64,000 nt of DNA from Hyphomicrobiaceae bacterium (GTDB lineage Bacteria; Pseudomonadota; Alphaproteobacteria; Rhizobiales; Ancalomicrobiaceae). The stretch lies in the NCBI GenBank assembly GCA_016793065.1, contig JAEULV010000021.1:1-64000 (forward strand). Direction: 5' to 3'. A program made the position numbers and the translations under genes. The notes beneath the pieces were generated by a model that ran no database searches, had not been told where the DNA came from, and was given only the letters and a program-made list of their open reading frames with translations. Positions 7,205-42,728 of the stretch are shown here, piece by piece (position 1 is the stretch's first letter; every line of letters begins with the position of its first letter).

Positions 7205-7859
7205 GCAATGCTCCCGATACGGATTCGCACCCGTAGTCACGAATAGGTTTGGCAGAGGAGTAGCATCTCAAAGACGGCGAACGCAACAACGCCAATCCTC
7301 GCAAGCCGCCTCCACCTGCCGGGCGATTGAATTCATAAATCATTGACCAAGATTTAAAATTCTTTTGCGATCAAGGGCCTGCATCTGCCGATGCGGCAAT
7401 CACCCGGCCAGGACGCCGACCGCCGCAACCAGGAATCGACCAATACCCCCTGCAGGAACCCAATCATTGTGCCTTTTGCGCAACATCGTCCCCGCCAACA
7501 CCAAACGGGCGGGCAACGGGTCGCCCCGGGTCGATAGACGGAATCGCCAAGAATTCAGCCAATTTGCCGGCCTCGGCATGGTGAACGCCGATCGCCTCCC
7601 GATCGCATCTGTTCGATGCGGACTCCTTGGGCTAAGCCGGAATATCGATCCGGATCGACCCTTGCGAATCGGGCGCTAACCCGCGAGAAGCCCGGTCAGA
7701 GCCTGGCGATCGACAACCTGAACGCGCGCCCGGCGATGTAGCAACAAGACCGCACCTTTGCTTAAAGGCGCCATCGGAATGCAAAACAACGAATTAATAC
7801 TTCGTTAATACTTTAGCAGCCCATGAACAGCCACATCGACCGATCGGCGCGCCACCGCC
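7205..7859. other. 655-base intergenic region with AT-rich islands
   Basis: There is no convincing gene: the longest frame (plus strand, about 7365-7679) has no family resemblance and an Arg/Pro-rich composition typical of random frames in high-GC DNA. AT-rich islands occur at about 7327-7375 and 7780-7815. The first probably holds the promoter of the minus-strand autotransporter, although I cannot fix its -35 and -10 boxes. The second holds a CtrA-like box, listed separately. Confidence 0.6.
7794..7808. promoter_or_regulatory. CtrA-like binding box (TTAA-N7-TTAA)
   Basis: TTAA, seven bases, then TTAA. This is exactly the spacing recognised by the alphaproteobacterial cell-cycle regulator CtrA (TTAA-N7-TTAAC), with T in place of the last C. 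The 9-mer TTAATACTT occurs twice here, 11 bases apart. It lies 590 bases upstream of the autotransporter start and 52 bases beyond the end of the small secreted-protein gene. Confidence 0.45.
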
Positions 7860-8535: not shown

Positions 8536-11500
8536 TCAATTGCCGAGAATCAGCCGCGGGCCCTTCGGCTTGGTCGCGGCGGCGGCCGGTGCCACCTGCT
8601 GTGGTGTCGGCGGCTGCGGCCGCACCACCACCACTTTCGGCGGCTTCGGCTCGGCCGGCTTGACGATCCGCTTTTCCGGCTTGTCGGGCTTGGCCGGACG
8701 CGTCGGCTCGACCGGCCGCTTGGCGACGCAGCGACCGTCACGCAGGGTCTCGTCGGCGTCGCATTCGATCGGGCAGATCCGCCGGGTGCCCTCGGCCTCG
8801 ATCGCCCGCACGATCTCCTCGTTGAAGTCCGGCTCCTCCGCCGCCTCGCCCTTGCGCTCCAGATACCGCCGCAGCGCTTCGCTCGTCCGCGCCCCGGCCT
8901 TGCCGTCGGTGGCTCCGTCATAGCAGCCGACCTTCGACAGCGCGTTCTGCCCGCGCTCGATCAACGCCGTCCGCGCCGCCGCGTCGTCGCCCGCCCCCGG
9001 CACGCCGCCGAGCGGCGGCTGCTCCAGCGATGCCAGCACGATCCGCTTCGCCGGCTCGCACTTGGCATTGCGCAGGAACCGCGCCCGCTCGTCCCGCGAG
9101 CCGCTGGCCTTCAGCTGGTCGGCCTCGGCCTCCTCGCGCTCGCACAGCTGGCGCGCCTGCCGCGCCTCCGCCAGCATCTCGTTGCCCCGGTCCTTCGCCT
9201 TGGCGCACCGCGCCGCTTCGACGAACGCCGACAGCGCCGCCTCGTCGCTTCGCCCCAGTCCGCCAAGCCGCGATGTCTCCGCCGCGCACTGCTTGTCGTC
9301 CTGCGCCTTCAGCGCCGCCAGCGCCTGATCGATCAGACCCGCCGTCGCCTTGCACTTCGCCGACCGCCGCAACCCGTCGAGATCCTCGCGCCGCGCCTGC
9401 GCCTGCAGCTCCGCCACGGTGCCGCCTTCCTGCGCGCAAAGCTGCGCCTGCGCCTGCTTCTCCCGCGCGTCGATCGCCGCCAGCGCCTTGAAGATCCGCG
9501 CCGCGCCGTCGCCGCACCCGACCGTCGGCTTGAACGACGCCAGCCCCGACTTGTTGTCGTTGGCAACCAGCTGGTCGATCGTCTCCAGTTCCTTTCGGCA
9601 AGCCTCGGCGGCGGCCTGCTCCGCCGCCTGCTTCTTCGCCGCCTGTTCCTTGGCCGCGATGTCATCCAGCGCCGCCACCGCCCGCGCCGCCGCTTCCGAA
9701 CACTGCGCCTTGCCCTTCAGCGCGATGAGGTCGGCCTTGCGGCCGCCCTCGGCCGCGTCGTTGACCGACTTCAGTTCCTGGGCGCAGAGCTCGGCCTGGG
9801 CCTTGCGCTGCGCCTCGCTCTCGCGCGCGGCGATCTCCTTCAGTGCCATGTCGACCCGGCCCGCCGTCTCCGGGCACTTGCTGGCGCCGCGCAGCCCCTG
9901 CAGGTCCGCCTTGCGCCCGGCCGCCGCCGCCTCGGCGATGGTCGTCACCTCGCGCGCACACCCCTCGGCGAACGCCTTCTGCTGCGCTTCCTGCTCCCGC
10001 GCCGCGATCTGGCGCAGGCCGACATCGACGCGCGCCGTCGCATCCGGGCACTTGCTGCTGCCGCGCAAGGCCTGCAGGTCGCCCTTGCGGCCGGCGACGA
10101 TCATCTCCTCGATGCTCGTCGCCTCGCGCTTGCAGGCCTCGGCAAAGGCCTTCTGCGCCGCTTCCAGCTCACGCGCCAGCACCAGCTTGGCGCCGGCCTC
10201 GGCCTTCGCCGCCGTGTCGGGGCACTTGGCATTCGCCTTCAGCGCCAGCAGATCGTTGCGCTTGCCGGCGGCAACCAGCTCCTCGATCTGCGTCGCCTCG
10301 CGCGAACACGTCTCCGCCGCCAGCCGCTGCTGCGCCTCCAGCTCCCGCGCCGCGATCAGCCTCAGCCCGGCATCGACCCGCGCCGCCGTCTCCGGGCACT
10401 TGCTCGTCCCGCGCAGCGATTGCAGGTCGCCCTTGCGCCCGGCCTCGGTCATCTCCTCGATGCTCGTCGCCTCGCGCGAACACGCCTCCAGAAACGCCTG
10501 ACGCTGCGCATCCGCCTCGGCCGAGGCGATCTCGCGCAGCGCGATCTCGATGCGCGGCACCGAATCCGGACATTTCGCCGCCGCCTTCAGCGCCTGCAGC
10601 TCGGCCTTGCGCGCCGTCACCACATAGCCGCCGATCAGGATCGATTCCTGCTGGCAGACCTGCGCCAATTGCTCGGCCGCGCGCTTGCGCTCCTCCGCCG
10701 CCCGCCGTTCCTCCTCGTCCTTGCGCTTCTGCTCCTCCTCGCGCTTGCGCGCGTCCTCGTCGCGCCGGCGCGCCTCCTCGATCAACCGCACCTGCCGGCC
10801 GAGCATATCGAGCCTGAACCGCGCGTCGGCGCCGAATTCCGAGTTCGGATAGCGCGTCATGAAATCGCGGAAATCCGCCGCGTCCTTCGAGAAACGAATC
10901 CGCCCCCACATCGTCGCGTCGGTGTCGCCCTTGCTGAAGACGAACCCGTCCTTCAGCGTGATGGCGATGTCCGGCACCTGCCGACCCGCCGTGGTGATCG
11001 CCACATCCCGCGTCACCTGCCGGAACAGCTTGCGGACATCGAGCCCCGGCTCGCCGATATGCTTCAGCAGGGCGCGGGTGAACGGGCTGTTGCGCGACTT
11101 GCCGTCCTCGGCCACCTCGAACGGCGCCGTCGCATAGACCGTCACCGATTGCGGCAATGGCGTGATCTGCGGTGTCGCCGCCCCGCCGCTGCCCGGCTTG
11201 CCGGCGAACGGATCGTTGCGGCAGGCGTCGAACACCATGATGCGCGTGCCCTTCACCTGGGCCAGCATGTCGCGGATGTCGTCGATCGCCAGCATGTCGT
11301 ATTTGACCGACAGCTCGTCCTCCAGCGCCGCGTCGATCGGCACCATGTAGAGCCGGTCCTGATACTGCAGCGCATGCCCGGCGTAATACACCATCGCCGT
11401 GTCGGCGCCGGCGGCCATCCGGGCGAAGTCCTTCAGCACCGTGTTGCGCTCGTCCTTCACCAGGTTGACGCGCATCATCACTTCAAAGCCGAGATCCCGC

Positions 11501-11679
11501 AGCGCCGTCGCCAGATCCTCGGCGTCGTTGCGCGGATTGGTCAGGGCGGTGGCGCTCTTGTAGGTCGAATTGCCGATAACCAGGGCGACGCGCTTTTCCG
11601 CTGCCGCAGGCCATGCCTGGGCAATCAGGAGCAGGAGCGCTCCCAACAGGAAAAGAAGCTGCCGGCCGAGCCTAGGCAT
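8536..11679 (-). CDS. Secreted caspase-like (peptidase C14) protein with ten Cys repeats and a PG-binding-like domain
   Basis: The protein has 1047 residues. A signal peptide (1-27, ending PAAA) is followed by a C14 caspase domain (about 28-250) with both catalytic residues: His102 in YYAGHAL and Cys153 in FDACRNDPF. A charged coiled coil (about 295-338, Glu/Arg-rich) follows. Residues 342-888 are ten tandem units that each begin with Cys and have a second Cys at x27 (x26 in unit 9). The first five are exactly 58 residues long. After them comes a peptidoglycan-binding-like segment (about 905-960; ALSKVGCYDGATDGKAG), a short Cys pair (CPIEC) and a Lys/Pro-rich tail. The order suggests a periplasmic cysteine peptidase anchored near the wall. 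It lies on the same strand as, and downstream of, the trypsin/pseudo-caspase gene. Cleavage target is unknown. Confidence 0.85.
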   Translation of the reverse strand: MPRLGRQLLFLLGALLLLIAQAWPAAAEKRVALVIGNSTYKSATALTNPRNDAEDLATALRDLGFEVMMRVNLVKDERNTVLKDFARMAAGADTAMVYYAGHALQYQDRLYMVPIDAALEDELSVKYDMLAIDDIRDMLAQVKGTRIMVFDACRNDPFAGKPGSGGAATPQITPLPQSVTVYATAPFEVAEDGKSRNSPFTRALLKHIGEPGLDVRKLFRQVTRDVAITTAGRQVPDIAITLKDGFVFSKGDTDATMWGRIRFSKDAADFRDFMTRYPNSEFGADARFRLDMLGRQVRLIEEARRRDEDARKREEEQKRKDEEERRAAEERKRAAEQLAQVCQQESILIGGYVVTARKAELQALKAAAKCPDSVPRIEIALREIASAEADAQRQAFLEACSREATSIEEMTEAGRKGDLQSLRGTSKCPETAARVDAGLRLIAARELEAQQRLAAETCSREATQIEELVAAGKRNDLLALKANAKCPDTAAKAEAGAKLVLARELEAAQKAFAEACKREATSIEEMIVAGRKGDLQALRGSSKCPDATARVDVGLRQIAAREQEAQQKAFAEGCAREVTTIAEAAAAGRKADLQGLRGASKCPETAGRVDMALKEIAARESEAQRKAQAELCAQELKSVNDAAEGGRKADLIALKGKAQCSEAAARAVAALDDIAAKEQAAKKQAAEQAAAEACRKELETIDQLVANDNKSGLASFKPTVGCGDGAARIFKALAAIDAREKQAQAQLCAQEGGTVAELQAQARREDLDGLRRSAKCKATAGLIDQALAALKAQDDKQCAAETSRLGGLGRSDEAALSAFVEAARCAKAKDRGNEMLAEARQARQLCEREEAEADQLKASGSRDERARFLRNAKCEPAKRIVLASLEQPPLGGVPGAGDDAAARTALIERGQNALSKVGCYDGATDGKAGARTSEALRRYLERKGEAAEEPDFNEEIVRAIEAEGTRRICPIECDADETLRDGRCVAKRPVEPTRPAKPDKPEKRIVKPAEPKPPKVVVVRPQPPTPQQVAPAAAATKPKGPRLILGN
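9016..10656 (-). repeat. Ten-unit coding repeat (about 58 residues, C-x27-C)
   Basis: It encodes residues 342-888 of the caspase-like protein. Units 1-5 are 58 residues long; units 6-9 are 62, 54, 50 and 48; unit 10 is the last, about 43. The consensus is C.RE.T.IEE..AAGRK.DL with a second half ending KCP followed by an Ala/Arg/Glu-rich helix. Confidence 0.85.
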
Positions 11680-11990: not shown

Positions 11991-14507
11991 TCAGTTCTCG
12001 GCGATCTTGTGACGATAGAGCGCCGCGTCGAACGACCATTCGACATCCTTCAGCCCGCCGCTCGCCCGGTCCGCCACCTTCAGCGTCCGCGCGTAGTCGT
12101 GCACATAGACGAGCCCGCCCAGCGCATCGTTGGCATTTGGCGGCGTCGGCGGCAGGTCGAGCAGCTGCACCGGCTTGTCCGACAGGATCGCCACGATGAC
12201 GCTGGTGCCCGCCACCGGCTTGCCGGCCGGCGTCCGCACCGGCAGCGTCAGCGTCCGGCCGGGCTGGATCAGGTTCATCTCGGTCAGCGACCGGGCATCC
12301 TTCGGCAGCTTGCGCTGCGCCTTCGCCGTCTCGGCCAGCCCCGGGTCGGGATAGACCTGCGTCAGCCGTCCGTCCGGCTGGATCGCCACCAGCACCACGT
12401 AACCGGCCTTGCGCGACGTGACCTTGACCGTGAACGCCTGCCCGCCGGCGGCCTCGACCACCGGCGCCACCTCGACCGCGACGCCGGCCGTGTTCTGGAT
12501 CTTCGGCAGCTGCTTCCGGGCAACGCCGGCGATCGTCGGCCGCAGGCCCGATTGCAGGCTGGTGCCGAGAAAGGCCGCCGGCGCCCGCAATTGCGGCGTC
12601 AGGCCCATCCGGCAGGAGGCCCCGACCTCCTCGCAATAGCGCTCGGCATTCAGCCGCACATCCGCATACAGCCCGGCGACGTTGCTGTCGTTGCGCCCGC
12701 CATTCATCAGCGTCGCGCCCTTCAGCCCGTCGACATAGAGCCGCGTGAACACCCCCATCGGCTCGGCGCCGTCGCGATCGACCAGCGCCCACTGGTCGGC
12801 GGCGCTGGCGAACCAGGCAATCGGCCCGCGCGTCCATTCGGCGCTCAGGTCATCGCCCTCGCGCAGTTCCAAGTCGGCGATTTCCGGCGCCAGCTCCGCC
12901 ACCGCCTCGACGCTGCGCACATAGCCGCGCTCCTCCGGCCTCGCCTTCGCCGGCCGCTGGATCGCCCGCTGCGACACCTGCGTCGTGTCGAACACCGCCG
13001 TGGTCGAGCGATCCGCCAGCCGCGCCAACAGCCGTCGGACGTCGTTGCTGGAAATCGTGTTGCGCACGTCGCGCGCCCGGCCGTTGTCGTCGCTGACCAG
13101 GCTGACATCGACCGGCGCCAGCACCGGCCCCTCGCCGGCATCGCGCAAGGCCGGGAACACCCGCGTCTGGAACCCCTGGCCGCTGTAATAGAGGAACGTC
13201 CGCGCCCCCGGCTTGCTGCCCTGCACCAGCCACGCGTCGAACGCCGCCAGGATGTTCGCCCGCGTCGCCTTCTCGTTGGTCAGCGTCATCACCTGTTCGC
13301 GTCGGAACCCCAGCGTCGAGGTCAGGAGCTCGGTGACCGCAGCCGCGTCCCGCGTCGAGCCGACGAGCGACAGCGGCTCGGCATAGCCGTCGATGCCGAT
13401 CACCAGCGCCCGGTCGCCCCGCTCCACCGCCGCCGCCGACCGCGCCACGTCGCTCGGCGTCAGCATCGCGAACAGGTTGCCGATCGGCGCTTCCGTCGTG
13501 TCGACGCCGCCGCCGGCCGCCGGCGCTGCGATATCCGCCGCCGACATCATGAATGCCGTCGACGGCCGCGCCACCGGCGCCAGAGCCCCGCGCGCCACCG
13601 CCCGCAGCCACGGCTCGAACGCGGCGGTGCGCGAATAGACGCCGAAGCGATCCTTGCGCCCGCAGCCCTCGCCCCAGCTGACCACGCCCACCTGCACCCA
13701 GCCGCCATCCTCGGCCCGCACCATCAGCGGCCCGCCGCTGTCGCCCCGGCAGGCATCGCGCCCGCCGCCCGGGAAGCCGGCGCAGAGGTTGCGCGCGTCG
13801 ATGCTGTTGTCCTTCAGCGCGCTGGCGTCGTAGGTCGCCCGGCACGCCTCGATCGAAACCAGCGGCAGCTCGACCTCCTGCAGGTCCGCCGGCAGCAGAT
13901 CCAGGTCGAAATTCGCGGTTTCCTTGACGAACCCCCAGCCGACCACCGTCGCCGCCACCCCGGCCAGATCCTTGTCCACCGCCGATTCGCCGGCGATCGC
14001 CATGGCCGGCGCGTTCGCCGGCTCCGCCAGCTCGATCAGCGCGATGTCGTTGGCGAAGCTGTCGGGCATGAAGTCCGGATGATAGATGACCTGCTTGACC
14101 TTCAGCGCCTTGCGCGCGATCGCGTCGCCCGTGGTGATCACCGCCGGAATCCGGCTCTGCCCGGCCACCACCAGCACGTCCTGCGCCTGCACCGACTGGC
14201 GCCGCGCCCCCTGCCCCGCCGGCGTGACGAAGCAATGCGCCGCCGTCAGCACCCAAGTGGCGCCGACCACCGTGCCGCCGCAATGCGCCCGGTAGCGCCC
14301 GCGTCCGGCCGCGTCGGGGGCAAAGATCTTCACCTGCGACGGCCACGCCCCGTCAGCCGCCTTGCGTCCGCCGATGATGCGCGTCTGGCCGCGATCGGCC
14401 TCGGCGCCGGCGTCCTGCGCCGACACCGTCGCCGCCAGGCCGAGGCCAAGCCCCGCCCCGATCAGCGCCGCCGCCGTCCACCGACCCAGTCGTGAAGCCA
14501 AGCTCAT
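11991..14507 (-). CDS. Secreted trypsin-like protease fused to a catalytically dead caspase domain and a DUF4384-like C-terminus
   Basis: The protein has 838 residues. The signal peptide (1-30, ending TVSA-Q) leads into an S1 domain: RIIGG activation-like N-terminus (about 43-47), His91 (TAAHC), Asp154 (NDIAL) and Ser257 (GDSGGP). Asp251 is at the base of the specificity pocket, so cleavage after Lys/Arg is expected. Residues about 362-520 align to a caspase fold (RALVIGIDGYAEPL, YYSGQGF, FDTTQVS), but the catalytic His is Gln444 and the catalytic Cys position is Thr509. The caspase part is therefore a pseudo-enzyme. Residues about 680-780 (GYVVLVAIQPDG, then VIVAILSDKPV) fit DUF4384. It follows ppkA and a small orphan gene on the same strand. 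The substrate is unknown. Confidence 0.87.
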   Translation of the reverse strand: MSLASRLGRWTAAALIGAGLGLGLAATVSAQDAGAEADRGQTRIIGGRKAADGAWPSQVKIFAPDAAGRGRYRAHCGGTVVGATWVLTAAHCFVTPAGQGARRQSVQAQDVLVVAGQSRIPAVITTGDAIARKALKVKQVIYHPDFMPDSFANDIALIELAEPANAPAMAIAGESAVDKDLAGVAATVVGWGFVKETANFDLDLLPADLQEVELPLVSIEACRATYDASALKDNSIDARNLCAGFPGGGRDACRGDSGGPLMVRAEDGGWVQVGVVSWGEGCGRKDRFGVYSRTAAFEPWLRAVARGALAPVARPSTAFMMSAADIAAPAAGGGVDTTEAPIGNLFAMLTPSDVARSAAAVERGDRALVIGIDGYAEPLSLVGSTRDAAAVTELLTSTLGFRREQVMTLTNEKATRANILAAFDAWLVQGSKPGARTFLYYSGQGFQTRVFPALRDAGEGPVLAPVDVSLVSDDNGRARDVRNTISSNDVRRLLARLADRSTTAVFDTTQVSQRAIQRPAKARPEERGYVRSVEAVAELAPEIADLELREGDDLSAEWTRGPIAWFASAADQWALVDRDGAEPMGVFTRLYVDGLKGATLMNGGRNDSNVAGLYADVRLNAERYCEEVGASCRMGLTPQLRAPAAFLGTSLQSGLRPTIAGVARKQLPKIQNTAGVAVEVAPVVEAAGGQAFTVKVTSRKAGYVVLVAIQPDGRLTQVYPDPGLAETAKAQRKLPKDARSLTEMNLIQPGRTLTLPVRTPAGKPVAGTSVIVAILSDKPVQLLDLPPTPPNANDALGGLVYVHDYARTLKVADRASGGLKDVEWSFDAALYRHKIAEN

Positions 14508-14687: not shown

Positions 14688-15017
14688 TCAGTCCGGCAGC
14701 GGCACGACGATCTTCAGCCGCCACGCCCCCTGCGGATCGACAAACGCCGTGTAGGACAGCCGCTCCCACGCCCGCTTTTCCCGCTCGAGGAACGTCACCA
14801 TCTCGCCGACATAGGCCCGCATCTCATCGGTCGGCTCGACTTCCTCGCCGGCGACATCCGGATTGCACAGCGTGATCGCCACGCCGCCGCCATCGAGGTT
14901 CTTGCGCGGCTCGACCGCCAGCAGGATCGACTTCCAGTCCTCCGGCGTGATCGCGAACATCTCGTCGACGATCTTGCGATCGATTGCCGACTGCTCGGCG
15001 GGAATCTGCAGGGTCAT
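14688..15017 (-). CDS. Conserved-looking small protein of unknown function between ppkA and the protease gene
   Basis: The 109-residue acidic, soluble protein has no signal peptide. ATG 15017 is preceded by GGAGG at 7 bases, which decides the start over a TTG one codon earlier. The sequence contains TPEDWKSILLAVEPRKN, a GGGVAITLCNP strand and a C-terminal DPQGAWRLKIVVPLP. I do not recognise the family. The alternation of an amphipathic helix and beta strands suggests a small alpha/beta fold such as an adaptor, chaperone or immunity-type protein, but that is only an impression. It is separated by 180 bases from both ppkA and the protease gene on the same strand. Confidence 0.6.
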   Translation of the reverse strand: MTLQIPAEQSAIDRKIVDEMFAITPEDWKSILLAVEPRKNLDGGGVAITLCNPDVAGEEVEPTDEMRAYVGEMVTFLEREKRAWERLSYTAFVDPQGAWRLKIVVPLPD

Positions 15018-15197
15018 CAATCATCCTCCGCTTGCGCCGGTCGCTCGTGCCGTCTGGCCGACCGTTCCGGACAAAAACCATTCTCAAATCCGCGACGCGA
15101 CCCGATCAAAATCAGCGGTCGCCATTCTGCCCGATAAAACCCTGGCACGAAAGCACCCGTGCAAGGCGAAACCCGCTCCGGCGCGCGTCGGCCGGCC

Positions 15198-17300
15198 TTA
15201 TCGCTGCACCGTCAGATATTGCGCCGAAACGCTCGGCTTGTCGCCACTGTTCGCCGCCTGCTCGCCGAGTAGCTCGACGAACCGCGCCGCCGTCATCGCC
15301 TCCTCCGACTGCAGCACCGGCAGCGCCTGCGCCGTCGCCAGCGCCAGCACCAGCTGCGGCCGGTCGCCCTCGCCGCCTTGCCGCCGGACCTTCGCCAGGA
15401 ACGCCGCCCCTGCCTCCCCGCCCGGCCGCACCGGCTTGACCAGCACCCGCATCGACCCGTCGTCCTCCAGCAGGAAGACGCTGACGAAACTCCCCGCCGC
15501 CGACTGCGCCTCGCCCGCCAGCCAGTCGCCGGCGCGCACTGTGCCGGCGACGACCTCCAGCCGCGGCCGGCGCGGATCGTTCGGCCGGGTCTCCGCCAGC
15601 AGGTTGACCACCGGGCATTGCGCCTCGGCCACCGGCCGCATCAGCACGCCGGCCCCGAAGCCGAAGGTCTTGCGAAACTCGCTGTCGAGCGCCTGGAATG
15701 GCTGCGCCGAGCGGCCATACCCCTCGGTCATCGCCTGATTGTCGGCGACGACGATCGGATTGAGGAACGTGCAATCGCCCTTGCGGTAGTCCGCCAGATA
15801 GCGCCGCACATCCTCGGGCCGCACCTCCGGCGCCGCCTCCTCAACCTTCGGCGCCACCGGCGTGCCGCCGCCGCCAGCGCCCGGCGTCACGTCAGCCGTG
15901 GTCGTGCCGGGCACGGCCGGCTTGCCCTGGGTCATGAACCAATAGCCGCCACCGCCGAGCAGCATCAGCACCACCGCCGCCGCCGCGCCGATCAGCCCCG
16001 CCGACCCGGATTTCTTCTCGACGGCCGGACGCGGCGCCCGCCGGTCGCGCAGCGGCATCGGCGGCTGCGAGCCCTGCCCGTCCGCCGGTCGCCAGCCCGA
16101 GCCCTGCCCCGTCGGCATCGGCCCACGCTGCGATCCCGGCTGTTCCTGCGGCCATTGGCTCGGATGCGGGCCGAAGCCGCCGGCCGGTCCGCGCTGCGAT
16201 CCCTGGTCTTGCGGCCATTGGCTGGGGTGCCGGCCCTGCCCCTGGGTCGGGCCGCGCTGCGACACGCCCTGATCCTGCGGCCACTGGCTCGGCCCGCGCG
16301 GCTGTTGCGCCGCCGCGTAGTCGCCGGGCCACTGCCCGCCCTGCATCGGCCCGCCCTGCATCGGCGATGGCCGCGCCCCGCCGGGGATCGCCACCGTCCG
16401 GTCCGGCTCGTCCTGGCCGTAGCCGCCCCACGACGGCCCCGGCTGCATCGAGCCGCGCCGCAGCCAGCCGACGACCTCGTTCATGCTCTGCGGCCGGTCG
16501 TCCGGGTTGGGTTGCAGCATCCAGCCGATCAGCGGCTGGATGCGCGGATCGAGATGCGAGATGTCCGGCACCACCCGCCGCTTCTCGATCACCTCCAGCG
16601 GGCTGCCGCGCATGTTCAGCGACCGCCCGGCAATCGCCTCCGACAGCACCAGCCCGAGGCTGTAGATGTCGGAACGCCCGGTCACGTCGCCGTTGAACAT
16701 GCCGAGCTGTTCCGGTGAGACGTAATTGTATTTGCCGGCAAATCCATCGCCGATCACTGTCCCGTGCGACGCCTTGGTCTGGCGGGCGATGCCGAAATCG
16801 ATGATCTTGGCCTTGGCGACGTCCTGCTCGGGAATGATGATGTTGTCGGGCGAGATGTCGCGGTGGATGATGCCGCGCTCATGCGCCACCTGCAGTCCCG
16901 ACGCCACCCGCGCCGCCAGCACCCGCACCTGATCGAAGCTCATCGGACCGTTCTTCAGCCAGTCCGAGATCGACACGCCGTCGACGAACTCCATCGCCAG
17001 ATACGGCCGGTTCAGCCCCGGATCGACGGAGAAGCCGTAATAGCGAACGATGCTCTCGTGATAGAGATTGTGCAGCGCCGACGCTTCCTTGCGAAACAGC
17101 ATCATCGCCGATTCGGTATCCGCCACGTCGTTGCGGATCATCTTGATCGCGACGAGGTCGCCGGTCTGGATGTTGTGGCCGCGATAGATCTCGCCCATGC
17201 CGCCGGCGGCGATGCCGGCGTCGATCGCATACATCTCGTTGAGCCGGGTGCCCTCCGGCAGCCAGCTTCCACCCGACCGTTGCGATCCACCCGCGCTCAT
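15198..17300 (-). CDS. ppkA: T6SS Ser/Thr protein kinase PpkA with single TM and periplasmic domain
   Basis: The protein has 700 residues. The kinase domain (about 17-290) shows the G-loop GGMGEIY (33-39), Lys53 (AIKMI), HRD at 146-148 (HRDISPDN) and DFG at 168-170, so it should be active. A Pro/Gln-rich linker (about 295-430) contains DRTVAIPGG with Thr302. One membrane segment lies at about 438-457. The C-terminal part (about 490-700) should be periplasmic and includes a DUF4384-like stretch (VSVFLLEDDG, then LVLALATAQALPVL). ATG 17300 overlaps the pppA stop by 4 bases, indicating coupled translation. In Pseudomonas and Agrobacterium, PpkA turns on T6SS firing by threonine phosphorylation of Fha or TssL. 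It is last in the minus-strand T6SS block. Confidence 0.93.
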   Translation of the reverse strand: MSAGGSQRSGGSWLPEGTRLNEMYAIDAGIAAGGMGEIYRGHNIQTGDLVAIKMIRNDVADTESAMMLFRKEASALHNLYHESIVRYYGFSVDPGLNRPYLAMEFVDGVSISDWLKNGPMSFDQVRVLAARVASGLQVAHERGIIHRDISPDNIIIPEQDVAKAKIIDFGIARQTKASHGTVIGDGFAGKYNYVSPEQLGMFNGDVTGRSDIYSLGLVLSEAIAGRSLNMRGSPLEVIEKRRVVPDISHLDPRIQPLIGWMLQPNPDDRPQSMNEVVGWLRRGSMQPGPSWGGYGQDEPDRTVAIPGGARPSPMQGGPMQGGQWPGDYAAAQQPRGPSQWPQDQGVSQRGPTQGQGRHPSQWPQDQGSQRGPAGGFGPHPSQWPQEQPGSQRGPMPTGQGSGWRPADGQGSQPPMPLRDRRAPRPAVEKKSGSAGLIGAAAAVVLMLLGGGGYWFMTQGKPAVPGTTTADVTPGAGGGGTPVAPKVEEAAPEVRPEDVRRYLADYRKGDCTFLNPIVVADNQAMTEGYGRSAQPFQALDSEFRKTFGFGAGVLMRPVAEAQCPVVNLLAETRPNDPRRPRLEVVAGTVRAGDWLAGEAQSAAGSFVSVFLLEDDGSMRVLVKPVRPGGEAGAAFLAKVRRQGGEGDRPQLVLALATAQALPVLQSEEAMTAARFVELLGEQAANSGDKPSVSAQYLTVQR

Positions 17301-18085
17301 GACGTCGTCGCCCAGTTCGGTTTCACATGCGCCCCGAGTTCGAGCACCGTCGGCTCGCGCCGGCGCGTCTGCACCACGATTGCCGTCACATTGTCCTTGC
17401 CGCCGCGCTCCAAGGCAAGCGCGATCAGCGCGTCGCACGCCACCTGGGCGTCGTGACCGGTGACCATGTCGCGGATTTCCTCGTCGCTGACATGGATCGT
17501 CAGCCCGTCCGAGCACAGCACATAGGTGTCGCCGGTCTCGATCAGCCCGTCGACCATCTCCAGTTCCACCTCCTCGGTGACGCCGATCGCCCGGGTGATG
17601 ACGTTGCGCCGGGGCCAGCGCGCCGCTTCCTCCCGCGTCAGCATGCCCTGCGCCACCAGTTCCTCCGCCTCCGAATGGTCGCGGGTGAGCTGGCTGATCT
17701 CGCCCTCGCGCACCCGGTAGATCCGGCTGTCGCCCGACCAGACGCAGGCATAGGACGCCCCGTGCGCCAGCAGGATCACCACCGTCGCGCCGATCAGCGC
17801 CAGACCCATCTCCGCCGCCGCCACCCTGAGCCGGGTGTTCGCCCGCACCAGCTTCGCCTCGCACTGGCGCAACAGCCCCACCGCGTCCGCCTGCGCCGCG
17901 ACACCGCCCAGTTCCTCGCACACGACCATGCTGGCGAGCTTGCCGGCCTGGTGCCCGCCCATGCCGTCGGACACCACCCACAGGCCGAGGCCGGGACGCA
18001 TCAGGAAATTGTCCTCGTTCGCCTGCCGGACCTTGCCGGTATGGCTCGATGCCCCGGATTCGAACACCAGCGACGCCATGTCCAT
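17297..18085 (-). CDS. pppA: T6SS PP2C-type protein phosphatase PppA
   Basis: The 262-residue protein has the PPM/PP2C metal-binding motifs: RQANEDNF near residue 20, VSDGMGGH near 38-45, a CSDGLT block and a late GGKDNVTAIVV. This is a complete single-domain phosphatase without a membrane segment. It reverses PpkA-driven threonine phosphorylation and switches off T6SS assembly in known systems. GAGG lies 7 bases before the first ATG. It overlaps ppkA by ATGA and follows tagF after 154 bases. Confidence 0.93.
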   Translation of the reverse strand: MDMASLVFESGASSHTGKVRQANEDNFLMRPGLGLWVVSDGMGGHQAGKLASMVVCEELGGVAAQADAVGLLRQCEAKLVRANTRLRVAAAEMGLALIGATVVILLAHGASYACVWSGDSRIYRVREGEISQLTRDHSEAEELVAQGMLTREEAARWPRRNVITRAIGVTEEVELEMVDGLIETGDTYVLCSDGLTIHVSDEEIRDMVTGHDAQVACDALIALALERGGKDNVTAIVVQTRRREPTVLELGAHVKPNWATTS

Positions 18086-18239: not shown

Positions 18240-18929
18240 CTAGGACGCCGCCTCGAAGCGACCAGTCAGGAAGCCGCGAAACTGCCCCGGATCCGGCAAG
18301 CGGTGCCCCGACAGCACCATCGGCTCGAACCCCTCGCCGCCGACCGTCCACCAGAACGTCGCCGTCGACGCCACCCTTGCCGCGTCCGCCGGCCCGAGCG
18401 CCTCGAACAGGTTGCCGCCCTCCGCCGCAGCCGTCGTCAGCAGCATGCCGTCGCCCAGCACCCGCGAGCCCGACGGAAACGCCGGCTCGGCGATGGCGGC
18501 CGGCGGCGCCAGCCCCTTCAGCGCCTCGGTCATCGCCTCGAAGTTCAGGTCGTCGTCGAGGCTCGCCAGCAGGAAGTCCTCGATCATCTGATACCACGCC
18601 TCCTGCGGATCGACCGACGGCGGCGCGAACGCCTGTTCCTCCTCCGCCATCGCCAGCAGCGTCAGCGGAAAATACCGGCCGATCCCGTCGACCGACGGCA
18701 TCAGCGCCCCCGTCACCGTCGCGCCGCAATGGCTCTTGCCGAGCCAGAACCGCCAGATCGGCGCCCGCAGGTACAGCTCCGGCCAGCGCGCGCCGATCGA
18801 CAGCCGGCTGGCGCTGATCGCCCCTTGCAGCCACGGCTCCCACACCGGCAGGAACCCGCGCGGCACGCCCTCGGCGATGAAGTCCCGCTTGACCGGCAGC
18901 TTGCCGTAGAGCGCGCAGCGTGTCGCCAT
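18240..18929 (-). CDS. tagF: T6SS-associated protein TagF
   Basis: The 229-residue protein has the TagF signature: YGKLPVKRDFI at the N-terminus, WEPWLQGAISASR near residues 30-42, PIWRFWL, and GIGRYFPLTLL. TagF acts in the cytoplasm as a post-translational repressor, with FHA/PpkA signalling relieving it in Pseudomonas. In Agrobacterium TagF is fused to PppA; here they are separate genes. Its ATG begins 1 base after the tssM stop. Confidence 0.92.
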   Translation of the reverse strand: MATRCALYGKLPVKRDFIAEGVPRGFLPVWEPWLQGAISASRLSIGARWPELYLRAPIWRFWLGKSHCGATVTGALMPSVDGIGRYFPLTLLAMAEEEQAFAPPSVDPQEAWYQMIEDFLLASLDDDLNFEAMTEALKGLAPPAAIAEPAFPSGSRVLGDGMLLTTAAAEGGNLFEALGPADAARVASTATFWWTVGGEGFEPMVLSGHRLPDPGQFRGFLTGRFEAAS

Positions 18930-18930: not shown

Positions 18931-21900
18931 TCATTGCACCAGCGTCGCGGGGCAATTGAACTCCCGCAGGGCCGACATCGTGAACGGGTTCACCGTCGAC
19001 TGCACATTGAAGCGATAGGCATGCTCGCGCCCGGCGGTGATCACCACCCGCAGCGCGTCGCCCTGTTTCGACACCTTGCTCTGGTCGAGCACCTTGAACA
19101 ACGCCCACACGCCGGTCCGCTCCATCAGCGGAAAGCTCGTGCCGGTCTGGTCCGAGATCGCCACCATCGTCACCCGGCCAAGCCCGGTCGGCCCCGGGAA
19201 CATCACCGTCGCCGGCGCAACCGACTGCGGCGGCGGCGCCGGCGGCGGCGTCGTTCCGGGGAAGGTGAAGCCCGGCTCCGGCGGCGCCTGCGGCGAGGCG
19301 ATCTGCGTGCCGTTGATGTCGAGCTTCACCGTCGTCCCCGCCGCCGTCGGCGTCAGCGGCATCACCGCGAAGGCAAAGCTCGCCTGCGTGCCGCCGGCGC
19401 CGAAGAACGCGTCGCGGATCTGCGCCGCCCGCTGGAATTCCCTCAGCGAATTGTTCGACAGCATCTGCCCCACCCGGCTGTCCTTGCGCCAGGTCCACTC
19501 GGCCTTCGAGGTGTCGACATAGGTCTGCAGGCTGGTGATGAAGAACTTGTCCATCACCCCGTTCGGCGAGAACACCCGGGCGAAGTCCGCCATCTGGACT
19601 TCCTTGTCCGAGCCCTTGGTGAACGGATAGCGCCCGGTGATCAGCTGCCGGCACACCGCCGTGACGTTCTCGGCCAGACCCTTCTGCAGCTCGGCCACCA
19701 CCGACGACGCCACCGTCCCCTCGAACTCCTCCGACGCCGCCCGCATCAGCTTGTCGAACGGCGCCGGCAGCCGGTTGGAGCTCGCCCGCATCGTCGCCAG
19801 GCTCTGCCGCGTCGCCGCGTTGAGCTGCAGCGCCGAGCCGACCTCGCCGGCCGACCCGGCCAGCCCCTGATAGACCTCGTTGAGAATGCCGACGAAGGCA
19901 TCGATCTCGCGCCCGCCGGCATTGCCCTCGACCCAGGCATAATAGGGCCGGAAATTGTCCTCGATCGACCGCCCCGCCGAGGCGCTGTTCTGGAACACGA
20001 TCGCCGGCTTGGCCGCGCCCGCCCCCGCCCCCGCCGGCGCCTCTTCCTTCTTGCGCTCGCGCGACAATTGCGTCTGCGTCTTGATGTCCTCGAACAGCTG
20101 CTTCAGCGGCGACGCCGCCGACGACAGCGTGCCGAGCGTCAGATATTTCGGCCGGTCCGCCGTCAGCGGCCTCACCCGGATATTGGCGAGCGCCGCGTTC
20201 CACGCCGCGATGAAGTCCTTGGCATAGATGATCAGGATATCGTCCGGCAGCGTCTGGAACTGGTTGTCGACCACCGCCTGCCGCCCCGGCTCGCCCAGGA
20301 CCCAGCGCTCCCGCTCCAGCTGGTCGGCGATGTCCGGCAGCCGGTCGATCAGGCCCTCATGGAAGCCGTTATAGGTGTAGAACCCGGCGACCCGCACCGC
20401 GTCGAGGCCCTTGCCGTCGCCGGAGGTGAACACCGCCGGCATGTTCGGCCCGGCCTTCGCCGCGATCCAGTCCTTGATCGTCTTCGACCGCGCCTTGGAC
20501 TTCAGCATCTGGTAGGCGCGGTCGGCGAGGTTCATCCGCACCAGCGCTTCCTGCACGTCCTTCACCAGGGTGCCGTCGAGCTGCACATTGGCGCCGGTGC
20601 CGTTGTCGAGTTCCAGCATCGCCACCAGATGCTCTTCCAGCGCCTGCCGCATCCCGGCCTTTTCCGGTCCCGGATAAAGCTGGTTCAGCCAGTCGGCCCG
20701 CGCCCAGTCGACGATCAGCGCCTTTTCCGCCGGCCCCTGCGCTCCCAGCATCAGATAGACCTTGAACGTCTCGTAGAGATCGCCGCGCACGCTGCGCACC
20801 ATTTCCGCCCGCCCGGCATTCAGCACCTCTTCCAGCCGGAAGATCAGCCGCTGCCTGAGAAACCGCTCCAGCGCCGCCCGGTAGGTCGTCTCCGCCGCCG
20901 AGCGCAGGCGGTCGCGCTGCGACAGCCCGAACGTCTCCTCGGTCGGCACCGCCTCGTTGCGGTGCTCGTAGCCGACCGGCATGTTGCGCACCGCCTCCAG
21001 CAGCGGCAGCACCCGCTCGAACTTGCGGTCCGAGATCGTCGTCTCGCTGAGCAGCGCCTTGGCATTGGCGCCATAGGCGGTGATCTCGCCATTGGTGCCG
21101 ACGATCAGCTGGTCGTTGCGGGTATAGGACAGCGTCCACGCCGCCACCCCCGCCATCGTCGCCAGCGCCAGCGCCGAATAGGCGGCGATCTTGATCAACA
21201 GGTTGCGCCGCACCGCCCGCTGGTCGGTCGACACCCAGGCACTTTCGCCGATGATCACCTTGTTGATCAGGTCGGCGAGGAAGTAGCTCTTGCCGGTCCC
21301 CGACAGATAGCCGTCATTGATCGCCTCGGCCCCGAATGACCGCGAGATCGAGCCGATGATCCGGTCGATCGGCGTGCCCTCCTGCGTGCCGGAGGTGAAA
21401 TAGAACCCGCGCAGGATCGCGTTGGAATGATAGCGCGTCGGCTCGAAGATCCGGGTGAGGAAATCGAACACAGGCTGCTTCAGCGTCACCACCTGCGCCG
21501 GAAAACCGAACACCCTGACCCGCGCCGCCGGGTCCGGTTCGCCCTGCAGCCGGTCCGGCATCATTTCGCTGAGCCGCTCCACCAGCGCGTCGAGCTCGCC
21601 GGGGAACTGCGTCACCATGTTCTCGGTCTTGCTCTTGGTCTGGAACGTCGCGCCCCACACCTGCCGCCGGCCGGCCTCGCCGAGATAGCCGAAATACTCC
21701 TGGAATCCCGCCACCAGATCCATCTTGGTGAACAGCACATAGACCGGAAAATCGATCTTCAGCCGCTCGTGCAGCTCCAGCAGCCGCGAGCGCACCGCCC
21801 CGGCATGGGCCACCAGCTCGGCCTGGTCCAGTGTGATCAGGTCCTGGATGCTGATCGCCACGATCACGCCGTTGATCGGCTGCTTCGGCCGGTTCTTCTT

Positions 21901-22488
21901 CAGCAGGTCGAGAAACGCCCCCCAGCTCTTCTGATCGGAGCGCTGGTTGGAATCCTGCGTCGTGTAGCGCCCGGCGGTGTCGATCAGCACCGCGTCCTCG
22001 GTGAACCACCAGTCGCAATAGCGCGTGCCGCCGACACCGGCGATCGCCTGCGGCGTCTTGCCCCGCGCCAGCGGAAAGTTCAGCCCCGAATTGACCAGCG
22101 CCGTCGTCTTGCCCGATCCCGGCGGACCGATGATCACATACCACGGCAGGTCGTAGAGAAAATCGCCCTTGCCGCCGCTGGCGCTCTTCAGCGTCGTCAG
22201 CGCGTCCTTCATCCGCTCCTTCAGCGCGTCGCTGTCGTCCTGCTCCTCCGCCTGCCCGACCGCCTCGCTGAGGTTCTCCGCCGACTTGATGCGGGTATAG
22301 GCGTAGTGGATCAGATAGCCGCCGCCCATGACGGCGCAGAACACGATCGAGATGCCGCGAATCCAGGGCGATTCGAACGGATAGTAGCCGGCCATGGCAA
22401 ATAGCGGCGCGGCATACCAGATGACGCCGCACAGGGCGACGATCCCTGACAGTACCACCCCCGACTTGGCCCAGAATGCGCGCCCCAT
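18931..22488 (-). CDS. tssM: T6SS membrane complex protein TssM (IcmF)
   Basis: The 1185-residue protein has two N-terminal membrane segments (about 8-30 and 40-60). A GTPase-like cytoplasmic domain follows with Walker A GPPGSGKT at 121-128 and VLIDTAGRY. A third membrane segment near residue 430 precedes the large periplasmic part. With TssL it forms the trans-envelope channel, normally tethered to the outer membrane by TssJ, which is not recognisable here. ATG 22488 is preferred over a GTG 8 codons upstream because a purine-rich AAGGGATAGG precedes it. Walker A is intact, so ATP-dependent function is possible. Confidence 0.95.
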   Translation of the reverse strand: MGRAFWAKSGVVLSGIVALCGVIWYAAPLFAMAGYYPFESPWIRGISIVFCAVMGGGYLIHYAYTRIKSAENLSEAVGQAEEQDDSDALKERMKDALTTLKSASGGKGDFLYDLPWYVIIGPPGSGKTTALVNSGLNFPLARGKTPQAIAGVGGTRYCDWWFTEDAVLIDTAGRYTTQDSNQRSDQKSWGAFLDLLKKNRPKQPINGVIVAISIQDLITLDQAELVAHAGAVRSRLLELHERLKIDFPVYVLFTKMDLVAGFQEYFGYLGEAGRRQVWGATFQTKSKTENMVTQFPGELDALVERLSEMMPDRLQGEPDPAARVRVFGFPAQVVTLKQPVFDFLTRIFEPTRYHSNAILRGFYFTSGTQEGTPIDRIIGSISRSFGAEAINDGYLSGTGKSYFLADLINKVIIGESAWVSTDQRAVRRNLLIKIAAYSALALATMAGVAAWTLSYTRNDQLIVGTNGEITAYGANAKALLSETTISDRKFERVLPLLEAVRNMPVGYEHRNEAVPTEETFGLSQRDRLRSAAETTYRAALERFLRQRLIFRLEEVLNAGRAEMVRSVRGDLYETFKVYLMLGAQGPAEKALIVDWARADWLNQLYPGPEKAGMRQALEEHLVAMLELDNGTGANVQLDGTLVKDVQEALVRMNLADRAYQMLKSKARSKTIKDWIAAKAGPNMPAVFTSGDGKGLDAVRVAGFYTYNGFHEGLIDRLPDIADQLERERWVLGEPGRQAVVDNQFQTLPDDILIIYAKDFIAAWNAALANIRVRPLTADRPKYLTLGTLSSAASPLKQLFEDIKTQTQLSRERKKEEAPAGAGAGAAKPAIVFQNSASAGRSIEDNFRPYYAWVEGNAGGREIDAFVGILNEVYQGLAGSAGEVGSALQLNAATRQSLATMRASSNRLPAPFDKLMRAASEEFEGTVASSVVAELQKGLAENVTAVCRQLITGRYPFTKGSDKEVQMADFARVFSPNGVMDKFFITSLQTYVDTSKAEWTWRKDSRVGQMLSNNSLREFQRAAQIRDAFFGAGGTQASFAFAVMPLTPTAAGTTVKLDINGTQIASPQAPPEPGFTFPGTTPPPAPPPQSVAPATVMFPGPTGLGRVTMVAISDQTGTSFPLMERTGVWALFKVLDQSKVSKQGDALRVVITAGREHAYRFNVQSTVNPFTMSALREFNCPATLVQ

Positions 22489-22640
22489 ATCCCGACCTAT
22501 CCCTTGATCCACACGTAATGGTTCAAATCCGCGACCCGCAATGCTGCTCTTCCGGCAAGACCGTCACCCGCGATCCGGTCGTCGCGGCCGATGGGCACCC
22601 GCCCGCCGACCGCGACGACCGGTCGAACCCGCCCCGCCGC

Positions 22641-25649: not shown

Positions 25650-27245
25650 CTACCTGCCGGATGATCCGAGCCGATCATAACATTCGGAAAAATACAACAT
25701 GAAGGCGCCAACCATGCCATTATCATTCCGCAACGTCTTCGCCTGCCAGCGCGCCGCATAGTGATCCCAGAGCTTGGCCTTGCGTGATCCGAGCAGCGCG
25801 GCGACGCCCTTGTCGGCCTCAACCGCCTTTTCCACCTCGGCCGGATCGAGATCCTCGAACAGCATCCGCATCGCCTGCTGCATCGCCGCGTAGGTGCGGG
25901 CCTGGTGGTTGACCAGATCCTCAAATCCCTCGGCCATCGCCTTCTGACCGCTCAGATAGCTGCGCATCGGCGGTCCGAGCATGACCATGATCGCCTCCTC
26001 GACCGTCGGCGAGAACTTCAGCGGATTGTTGTCGGTGGCGCCGATCATCGTGTGCTCGCTCGACCGCATCATCCGCTTGGCGTCGCTGCGCGCCGCCAGG
26101 AGCCGCATCATGTTCTCGGCCACCGTGCGCAGGACGGCGCCGACCTCCTCCAGCGTCTCGCCGGCGTCGCGACGCATCAGCGCCTGCGGCTGCACCCCCG
26201 CCCCCTTGGCGATCCGCGCCAGCGCCTCTTCCGCCGTCAGCATCCCGCCCGCCGCCGGCGCCTGGGCCGACGGCCGCACCGCGGCGAATTCCGATTGCGT
26301 CGCCGGCGGCGCCGGTTCCTCGGCGGCGACCGGCCGCGTGTCAACCCAGACCGAGCGTCGCCCGCCGGCGAACTCGCCGCCAGCCGGCGCGCCCGCCTCG
26401 CCACCGACAGGTGGCAGCGGCGCGACCGCCGGCACCGGCGCCGCGACAGGCGGCAGCGGCGGCGGAATCGGGGTCGCCGGCAACGGCGGCGGTATCGCCC
26501 CCGTCATCGGCACGGCGGCAGGCGTGTCCCACGGCGAGGCGCCCCCCGCCTTGCCCGGATCGACGCGCGGCAGCGGCGGCGGATCGAACGGCGAGCCGCC
26601 GCCGACCGGCACCGCGAATGGCGACTGCCCCGCCGGCCGCGCCGGTGTCGGGATCGGCATCGGCGCGTCGAACGGCCCCGGCTGCGCCCCGCCGACCGGA
26701 GCGGCAAACGGATCGCCGAAATCGTTGCCGCCCCGGCCGCGATCGCGCACCGGGTCCGGCAGATCCATCGCCCAGTCGAGGAAATCCGGCTGCACCGGCC
26801 GGTTCTGCTTGTTCGGCATCACCTCGGCCCGATGGGCCGGCGGCGCCGCCCCGTCGACCGACCAGAACTCGGCGGTGTTGATCGGCGGCGCCATCGGCGC
26901 CCGCGCCGGTTCCGGCGCCTGGTCGCTGGCGTCGATCTCGGCGACGACGATGTAATTGCCGATCAGCAGCCGGTCGCCATGCCGCAGCCGATGCGGCCCC
27001 TGCATCCGCCGGTCGCTGCCGTTGACGAACGTGCCGTTGGTCGACACGTCGTAGATCACGTAGTCGCCGTTCTGGAACCGCACCTCGCAATGCTTGCCCG
27101 AGATGAACCGCGACGGGTCCGGCAAGGTCCAGTCCAGGTGCGGGTCGCGGCCGAGATCGATCCCGCGGCGTCCGCTGACCCGGATGCTCAGCGGCCCGCC
27201 ATCCGGCAGATTGGTCTCGTTCTCGATTCTGAGCGTGAGCGCCAT
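25650..27245 (-). CDS. tagH: T6SS FHA-domain protein TagH (Fha/ImpI)
   Basis: The 531-residue protein has an N-terminal FHA domain (about 1-95) with all phospho-threonine-binding landmarks: GR at 32-33, Ser49 and His52 (FISGKH), and NGTFVNG starting at 70. A long Pro/Ala/Gly-rich linker (about 110-340) leads to a conserved C-terminal TagH domain (about 350-531) with FSPTVEEAIMVML. ATG 27245 (MALTLRIEN) is the natural start of the FHA fold; 25 upstream in-frame codons are Arg/Gly-rich and unlikely to be translated. In known systems FHA proteins bind phospho-threonine on TssL or themselves to license assembly. Confidence 0.93.
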   Translation of the reverse strand: MALTLRIENETNLPDGGPLSIRVSGRRGIDLGRDPHLDWTLPDPSRFISGKHCEVRFQNGDYVIYDVSTNGTFVNGSDRRMQGPHRLRHGDRLLIGNYIVVAEIDASDQAPEPARAPMAPPINTAEFWSVDGAAPPAHRAEVMPNKQNRPVQPDFLDWAMDLPDPVRDRGRGGNDFGDPFAAPVGGAQPGPFDAPMPIPTPARPAGQSPFAVPVGGGSPFDPPPLPRVDPGKAGGASPWDTPAAVPMTGAIPPPLPATPIPPPLPPVAAPVPAVAPLPPVGGEAGAPAGGEFAGGRRSVWVDTRPVAAEEPAPPATQSEFAAVRPSAQAPAAGGMLTAEEALARIAKGAGVQPQALMRRDAGETLEEVGAVLRTVAENMMRLLAARSDAKRMMRSSEHTMIGATDNNPLKFSPTVEEAIMVMLGPPMRSYLSGQKAMAEGFEDLVNHQARTYAAMQQAMRMLFEDLDPAEVEKAVEADKGVAALLGSRKAKLWDHYAARWQAKTLRNDNGMVGAFMLYFSECYDRLGSSGR

Positions 27246-27454
27246 GCGGCCGGCTTTCCCCCAACGACCCCGGGCAGGATCATGGCCCCGCCCGCGTCCA
27301 GCATCCATCCGCACCGCCAACCGTCATCCCCGGTCGGCCGCGTGCACAAGCCATGGAAGACCCATCCCGAGTCGTTTGATCCGGATTCCTTCCCGCCTGC
27401 CGACATTTATGAAGCCGCCGGCTTCAAGCCGCAAGACCGGCCTTCGGCCTTGCT

Positions 27455-41169: not shown

Positions 41170-41288
41170 CCACCGAACCTGCCGGGTCTTGCCGGCGGTC
41201 CCGATTGAACGACCCTGGAAAGGTCCGTCCCGTTGATGAAATCGCCGAAGCTTCATTCTTTCTCTTGTTAACGCGGAGCAATCCTTCA

Positions 41289-42728
41289 GTGGCTGAATCA
41301 CCCCCACCGGACAGCATCGAGGTTTCTCCCGACGAGGCGCTGGAAATCGGCCTGCGCTTCCTGCGAACCGGCAAGACCAAGGCCGCCTCGCAGGTCTTCG
41401 ACCAGATCCTCGAGGAGTTTCCCGAACACGCCGACACCTGGCACTTTCGCGGCCTGATGTTCGCCCAGAAGGGCGAGGTCGAGACCGCCAAGGACATGGT
41501 CCGCCGCTCGCTCGATCTCGCGCCCGGCAACGCCGCCGCCTGGAACAATCTCGGCAACCTGTGCTTCCAGTCGAAGGACCCGCAAGGCGCCTATCGGGCC
41601 TACCAGCGCTGCCTCGAATTGCAGCCGGATTTCCCCGATGCCCTGACCAATATCGGCTTCCTCTTGCGCAATGTCGGCGAACTCGACGAGGCCGCCGCGC
41701 TTTATCGCCGCGCCCTTGAGGTTCGCCCCGACTATCCCGAGGCGCTGAACAATCTCGGCACCATCCTGCTGGTCGAGGGCAAGACCGACGAGGCCATCGC
41801 GCTGCTGCGCCGCGCCGTCGAACTCGAGCCGATGTTCGGCGATGCCTACACCAATCTCGGCGAGGCGCTCGACCGCATCGGCGCCGCCGAGGAAGCCGCC
41901 CAGTGCTTCTGGAAATCCATCGCCCTCAACCAGGGCAACAAGACCGCCCGCAAGCTGATGGTCTATGCCCTGATCGAAAGCGGCCAGCGCGACAAGGCCG
42001 TCGCCTGCGCCCGCGAATGGCTGGCGCTCGACCCCAACGATCCCGACGCCCGCCACCACTACGCCGCCGTCACCGGCGAGGACGTGCCCGAGCGCGCCTC
42101 CGATGCCTATGTCTCCGTCGTCTTCGACCGCTACGCCGCCACCTTCGACAAGTCGCTGGCTTCGTTGAAATATCAAGCGCCGGATCTGGTCGCCGCCGCC
42201 CTCGCCGCCGATCGCGGCGCCCCGGCCGCCAGCCTCGATATCCTCGATGCCGGCTGCGGCACCGGCCTTTGCGCGCCGCTGGTCGCCGGCTTCACCCGCG
42301 CCATCGATGGCATGGACCTGTCGCGCGGCATGCTCGATCGCGCCGCCCAGCGCCAGCTCTATCGCAGCCTCGACCTGCTCGAGATCACCGCCGGCATGCA
42401 CGCCCGCCCCGGCGCCTATGATGTCGTCATCTCCGCCGACACGTTCTGCTATTTCGGCGATCTCACTGCCCTGCTCGCCGCCTGCGCCGCGACGCTGAAA
42501 CCCGGCGGTACGCTGATCTTCTCGGTCGAGGCGCTGCCCGACGACTGGCCGACGCCGTTCCGCATCAATCAGGGCAACGGCCGCTATGCCCACACCCGCG
42601 CCCATGTCGCCGCCGCCGCCGCTGCCGCCGGCCTAACCCTCACCGCCACCACCCGCGCCAATCTGCGCATGGAAGGCGGCAAGCCGGTCGCCGGCGATGT
42701 CCATACCTTGCGCAAGGCGGCTGCTTGA
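41289..42728 (+). CDS. TPR-repeat protein with C-terminal SAM-dependent methyltransferase domain
   Basis: The 479-residue protein has about seven TPR units (about residues 10-250) with AWNNLGNLCF, ALTNIGFLLRN, ALNNLGTILL and AYTNLGEALD repeats. A class I methyltransferase (about 285-479) follows, with motif I DAGCGTGLCAPLVAG, YDVVISADTFCYF and LKPGGTLIFS. GTG 41289 with GGAG 10 bases upstream is the likely start; the frame is open 28 codons further but with no better signal. It lies 208 bases after tssH. The methyl acceptor is unknown. The link to T6SS is positional only. Confidence 0.85.
   Translation: MAESPPPDSIEVSPDEALEIGLRFLRTGKTKAASQVFDQILEEFPEHADTWHFRGLMFAQKGEVETAKDMVRRSLDLAPGNAAAWNNLGNLCFQSKDPQGAYRAYQRCLELQPDFPDALTNIGFLLRNVGELDEAAALYRRALEVRPDYPEALNNLGTILLVEGKTDEAIALLRRAVELEPMFGDAYTNLGEALDRIGAAEEAAQCFWKSIALNQGNKTARKLMVYALIESGQRDKAVACAREWLALDPNDPDARHHYAAVTGEDVPERASDAYVSVVFDRYAATFDKSLASLKYQAPDLVAAALAADRGAPAASLDILDAGCGTGLCAPLVAGFTRAIDGMDLSRGMLDRAAQRQLYRSLDLLEITAGMHARPGAYDVVISADTFCYFGDLTALLAACAATLKPGGTLIFSVEALPDDWPTPFRINQGNGRYAHTRAHVAAAAAAAGLTLTATTRANLRMEGGKPVAGDVHTLRKAAA

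Follow-up and report, generated by a model that had tools for sequence, protein, structure and literature searches.

Caspase-type proteins that have lost their catalytic dyad are recurrent yet unexplained in alphaproteobacteria, and the locus described here raises the question of what such a domain does when it is joined to an apparently active protease. The window, a 64,000-nucleotide stretch of DNA from a bacterium that is closest, among named taxa, to Siculibacillus lacustris and Siculibacillus sp. (Ancalomicrobiaceae, Hyphomicrobiales), encodes a trypsin/pseudo-orthocaspase/DUF4384 fusion (Table 1). The protein type itself is already known. Pseudo-orthocaspases of Rhizobiales with a Gln-Cys pair were described by Klemencic et al. 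(2019; PMC6426788), almost all of them with an N-terminal trypsin of intact triad and a C-terminal DUF4384, and dyad loss was found to be frequent in Alphaproteobacteria (Asplund-Samuelsson et al., 2012; PMC3501461). The window protein is a Gln-Thr variant of this type; what is new here is the stepwise loss of the dyad, the constraint on the p20 domain, the co-occurrence with a type VI secretion system (T6SS) and an intact caspase, and the caspase and serpin genes that flank the fusion in Rhizobium.

Table 1. Features of the window and of related loci; coordinates are those of the window unless preceded by a locus identifier.
Feature	Coordinates	Strand	Details
Trypsin/pseudo-orthocaspase/DUF4384 fusion	11991..14507	minus	838 aa, predicted N-terminal signal peptide
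S1A trypsin domain	13599..14378	minus	residues 44-303; Pfam Trypsin 44-301, E 9e-44
Metacaspase-type p20 domain	12948..13424	minus	residues 362-520; Pfam Peptidase_C14 366-512, E 1.5e-10
DUF4384 domain	12009..12467	minus	about residues 681-833; Pfam 689-779, E 1.4e-07
Neighbouring exported caspase-family protein	8536..11679	minus	1047 aa, intact His (YYAGH) and Cys (FDACR)
Small conserved protein	14688..15020	minus	110 aa, between kinase and fusion
PpkA-like Ser/Thr kinase	15198..17300 (start approximate)	minus	transmembrane helix, C-terminal domain with conserved Cys pair
PP2C phosphatase (PppA-like)	17297..18085	minus	
TagF	18240..18929	minus	
TssM/IcmF	18931..22512	minus	
T6SS FHA-domain protein (Fha)	25650..27320	minus	
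Large repetitive protein	3362-7240	minus	autotransporter-like C-terminus
TPR protein fused to methyltransferase domain	41205-42728	plus	
571-aa protein	43852-45567	plus	
Second locus, own genome (contig 24)	L169:10298-14515		separate trypsin gene beside 1013-aa caspase-domain gene
Serpin directly after fusion	L070:12403-13632		also in eight more Rhizobium loci
Caspase-C-terminus-like gene	L053:12812-13456, L055:6915-7580, L057:12213-12614, L059:12921-13568		

The initial annotation had assigned the protein a complete S1 triad (His91/Asp154/Ser257) and a caspase dyad replaced by Gln444 (His) and Thr509 (Cys). The triad was confirmed in the 838-aa translation, and the two replacements by alignment with relatives and solved metacaspases. 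The DUF4384 domain and the signal peptide are additions to that description; the N-terminus (MSLASRLGRWTAAALIGAGLGLGLAATVSAQ), judged by reading the sequence only, resembles a Sec signal peptide and would direct the protein to the periplasm. NCBIfam gave no match to the fusion, and a known defence system was rejected as an identity, PADLOC returning a generic caspase model (E 2e-18) and LmuA at just E 0.009. Full-length homologues with 51-56% identity occur in five further Ancalomicrobiaceae, and remoter ones in Rhizobium and Minwuia; the architecture is therefore not a product of chance.

The trypsin half has the hallmarks of the S1A trypsin family, i.e., the triad, the chymotrypsin fold, the trypsin-specificity Asp and a zymogen-type N-terminus. 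Both the triad and Asp251, the S1-pocket residue equivalent to Asp189, are invariant in 22/22 fused sequences, and the activation site (R43/I44-I-G-G) is kept in 21, the truncated locus L012 being unreadable there. Three Cys pairs of the kind usual in S1A enzymes are conserved among the fused sequences checked. In an AlphaFold2 model of the full-length protein, the trypsin part matched plasma kallikrein (Foldseek, E 3e-20) and also factor XIa. Considering these features, the half is apparently an active protease, with a predicted activating cleavage after Arg43 and, since the pocket carries Asp251, a predicted specificity for Arg/Lys.

Whereas the trypsin is uniform, the caspase dyad differs among the fused proteins: His-Cys is intact in Minwuia MAGs and in the alphaproteobacterial MAG CAR1_bin_3, Gln-Cys is found in Rhizobium and one genome of family f11, and Gln is combined with Thr, Ser or Val in six Ancalomicrobiaceae. 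The initial annotation had proposed to check whether both substitutions are conserved and always accompany an intact S1 triad, and had named homologues with the caspase residues in place as evidence against its reading. Conservation holds for Gln444, which is invariant throughout the Rhizobium/f11/Ancalomicrobiaceae clade, and fails for Thr509, a position occupied by T, S or V among Ancalomicrobiaceae and by Cys in Rhizobium and f11. Homologues with a complete dyad do exist in the wider family, namely the Minwuia and CAR1_bin_3 fusions. The S1 triad is intact in all 22 fused sequences, but dead caspases are not confined to them: non-fused caspase-DUF4384 relatives mostly keep His-Cys, with the exception of four f50 genomes, in which dead caspases (Gln or Glu plus Ser) occur without trypsin. 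Since the f50 proteins form a separate clade in the tree, beside the intact L034, their loss of the dyad is apparently independent. Each of these trypsin-free pseudo-caspases (L041, L042, L046, and L051) adjoins a second caspase gene, intact where checked.

In the tree of the caspase-DUF4384 half, the Rhizobium, f11 and Ancalomicrobiaceae sequences form a single, fully supported clade, which also appears in the trypsin-half tree. His-to-Gln is therefore most simply placed on or before the stem of this clade and the loss of Cys on the Ancalomicrobiaceae stem, so that the dyad was lost stepwise, His being replaced first and Cys disappearing in Ancalomicrobiaceae alone. The intact-dyad fusions are not placed reliably in either tree, compatible with one or several fusion events. 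Related trypsin-DUF4384 proteins exist without any caspase domain, which is therefore not essential for such proteases. The window protein shares with the published Gln-Cys class (PMC6426788) the N-terminal trypsin with its triad, the His-to-Gln replacement in p20 and the C-terminal DUF4384, and it stands in one clade with the Rhizobium Gln-Cys proteins, as a sister variant. However, published members keep the Cys that Ancalomicrobiaceae have replaced with Thr, Ser or Val, so the window protein (Gln-Thr) lies outside the Gln-Cys definition; and its gene lies in a T6SS cluster, whereas PMC6426788 mentions neither secretion nor serpins.

In the window, the genes run in the order TssM, TagF, PP2C phosphatase, PpkA-like kinase, 110-aa protein, fusion and intact exported caspase, which places the kinase two genes upstream of the fusion and agrees with the initial annotation that the fusion lies downstream of the T6SS kinase. 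DotU, VipA/B, Hcp, VgrG, TssF, TssG and ImpA are encoded in the window besides Fha. G000, G002, G004 and G014 have the 110-aa protein at this place, between kinase and fusion; no copy was found in G012, whose cluster is rearranged. A DUF4384-like nature of the kinase C-terminal domain was considered and rejected, the profile match being weak (hhalign probability 30%, E 6e-4). Full-length fusions were found in 6/15 Ancalomicrobiaceae genomes (G000, G001, G002, G004, G012, and G014; the G001 contig begins inside the fusion gene), and TssM/IcmF is present in exactly the same six. The Fisher probability of this match, calculated by hand and ignoring kinship and physical linkage, is 1/5005. Genera g2, g3, and g6 each include genomes with both T6SS and fusion and genomes with neither. 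Since the members of a gene cluster are acquired and lost as a unit, the co-occurrence may reflect no more than physical linkage. An intact caspase accompanies the fusion in 6/6 of these genomes, either adjoining it or, in G012, ~13 kb off. By location and co-occurrence, the best reading of the fusion in Ancalomicrobiaceae is that of an accessory (Tag) gene of the T6SS cluster, with the G001 contig ending at the gene and any effect on the T6SS being putative.

Several other genes were observed around these clusters. In G014, G002, G004 and G012, the fusion is preceded upstream by a gene similar to just the C-terminal part of the intact caspase of Rhizobium; the window lacks this gene, and we take it as a probable remnant that ties the Ancalomicrobiaceae and Rhizobium kinds of locus together. 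Homologues of the large repetitive protein, which is encoded downstream of the caspase gene, occur near the relatives' clusters. The TPR-methyltransferase gene adjoins DUF4424 and the gene for the 571-aa protein in the T6SS clusters of two relatives. Neither Pfam nor NCBIfam matches the 571-aa protein; a DCSGF...GSHVMLF motif, like that of NlpC/P60 peptidases, is present in its Rhizobium homologue, and homologues are found in Ancalomicrobiaceae T6SS clusters and also ~5 kb from a Rhizobium trypsin-pseudocaspase gene. Elsewhere in the window's own genome, a second locus carries trypsin and caspase-domain genes side by side (Table 1).

The surroundings of the fusion are different in Rhizobium, where nine loci have DUF4384-OmpA, intact caspase, fusion, serpin and Ser/Thr kinase in order. 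The one serpin tested belongs to PF00079 (E 5e-54), and its homologues in the other loci are 61-82% identical. Its reactive loop has a conserved Arg-Ser that matches the trypsin pocket but would also be acceptable to caspase-type enzymes. The P1 Arg was rejected as proof of a trypsin target, the same Arg being present in alphaproteobacterial serpins unlinked to trypsin. Serpins are rare in the order (9/199 genomes), and in 4/9 the serpin adjoins a trypsin gene. As an obligatory partner the serpin was likewise rejected, since neither the window's genome nor the f11 Gln-Cys genome G165 has one. At three further loci (L170, L171, and L172), in two fusion-free Ancalomicrobiaceae (G011 and G013) and in G149, a caspase-free trypsin-DUF4384 protein is followed by a serpin and a caspase-domain gene. 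The flanks examined, ~10 kb around the Rhizobium fusions and a longer stretch around the f11 fusion, contained no T6SS core gene; service to a T6SS is therefore not the general role of the fusion.

These neighbourhoods bear on the strongest alternative to a T6SS accessory, i.e., that the fusion is a general envelope protease, serving defence, nutrition or quality control, whose association with the T6SS cluster arose by chance in a single family and which does not act on the T6SS. Such a role is possible but the less probable of the two: it accords well with the Rhizobium and f11 relatives, which lie outside T6SS clusters among serpin, OmpA-like and caspase genes, and with the trypsin-DUF4384 relatives that adjoin serpins and caspases without a T6SS, yet it leaves to coincidence the presence of the fusion in 6/6 T6SS-positive and 0/9 T6SS-negative Ancalomicrobiaceae, including G012 with its rearranged cluster.

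If the caspase half has lost its dyad, it might be a decaying relic that serves as a mere spacer between trypsin and DUF4384. The predicted structure speaks against this. The AlphaFold2 model of the full fusion is of low overall confidence (mean pLDDT 75.6, pTM 0.44) and does not give the arrangement of the domains; however, the model of residues 346-838 (pLDDT 85.2) has a confidently predicted p20 fold. A structural comparison with C14 peptidases, proposed in the initial annotation, recovered the metacaspase fold: the model matched Arabidopsis metacaspases 9 and 4, yeast Yca1 and MALT1 (metacaspases, E 5e-11), and a profile of the same residues found metacaspases among PDB sequences (Yca1, E 9e-31). 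The caspase fold of the region is thus well supported by prediction. The alignment with relatives and solved metacaspases revealed no intact His/Cys pair elsewhere in the p20 domain, an arrangement that the initial annotation had named as evidence against its reading. The protein therefore has the p20 fold of active C14 caspases and orthocaspases but not their His-Cys dyad, and with at least one dyad residue replaced it is a pseudo-orthocaspase. With neither dyad residue left, no cleavage is expected from the caspase half.

Two pocket acids, D387 and D507, are kept without variation across 26 sequences; they correspond to Asp95 and Asp211 of TbMCA2, which are implicated in substrate binding (PMC4357240). 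Retention of the acidic pocket in pseudo-orthocaspases has been reported before, for the cyanobacterial YS/YN forms (PMC6426788). These and the pseudo-metacaspase TbMC4 have lost the dyad, as has the window protein, but they carry other substitutions and no trypsin domain has been described in them. Selection on the p20 domain was compared with that on the trypsin half by the Nei-Gojobori method, whose dN/dS values are usable relatively only: p20 gave 0.112 and trypsin 0.110 for the closest Ancalomicrobiaceae pair, and 0.34 and 0.38, respectively, for a wider pair. Purifying selection on the dead p20 domain is about as strong as on the trypsin half, and a regulatory or binding role for it, of the kind suggested in the initial annotation, is therefore reasonable. 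The Ancalomicrobiaceae stem branch is longer for the caspase-DUF4384 half than for the trypsin half (1.14 vs. 0.34), as decay would predict; the faster change would also fit a shift of role at the loss of Cys. With present constraint equal to that of the trypsin, and with Gln444, D387 and D507 invariant, decay of the domain is improbable.

The location of the gene within a T6SS cluster might also suggest an effector, exported by the T6SS or otherwise, that acts on another cell; this is very unlikely, considering the signal peptide and disulphide-type Cys pairs of the protein, the lack of a PAAR, VgrG or Hcp fusion, and the existence of relatives without a T6SS. Least credible of all is unrecognised catalysis by the caspase half through Gln444/Thr509 or other residues, since close relatives have T, S or V at residue 509, leaving no conserved nucleophile, and no alternative invariant His/Cys pair exists in p20, even though Gln444 is kept without exception in the clade.

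We therefore return to the T6SS accessory as the preferred reading, to which we assign a probability of about 50%: the fusion would be an exported trypsin-type zymogen whose C-terminal half, a pseudo-orthocaspase plus DUF4384, has a docking or regulatory function, and which would provide a proteolytic step upstream of the PpkA-type kinase. Once cut after Arg43, the trypsin half would cleave after Arg or Lys. Since the metacaspase fold and two pocket acids for basic side chains are kept, the pseudo-caspase would most likely be a non-catalytic docking or regulatory domain for chains that contain Arg or Lys; candidates are the substrate, the trypsin itself or the adjoining intact caspase. In Ancalomicrobiaceae, this step upstream of the kinase, taking place in the periplasm, would be its likeliest role. 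The link from protease to kinase would be the weakest step of this mechanism.

Envelope inputs of this kind have precedents. TagQRST in Pseudomonas and RtkS in Serratia are species-specific inputs that promote the T6SS kinase PpkA (PMC10482370), and the fusion is likewise encoded beside kinase, phosphatase and TagF; the likeness is one of gene position alone, no sequence relation to the fusion is claimed, and none of these components is described as a protease in PMC10482370. A more speculative and rather doubtful extension is that a periplasmic relay of intact caspase and trypsin-pseudocaspase, serpin-controlled in rhizobia, would act as the sensor that feeds a transmembrane Ser/Thr kinase; in Ancalomicrobiaceae it would stand in for TagQRST or RtkS and control the firing of the T6SS. 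In the open-access literature searched, we found no report linking such caspase-type proteins to a T6SS or to a serpin. In this fusion family, forms with an intact dyad, with Gln-Cys and with Gln-Thr all come with an intact trypsin, and the setting supplies named partners, i.e., a serpin, a kinase, a T6SS and a caspase that is itself intact, which opens the function of a bacterial pseudo-caspase to direct testing.
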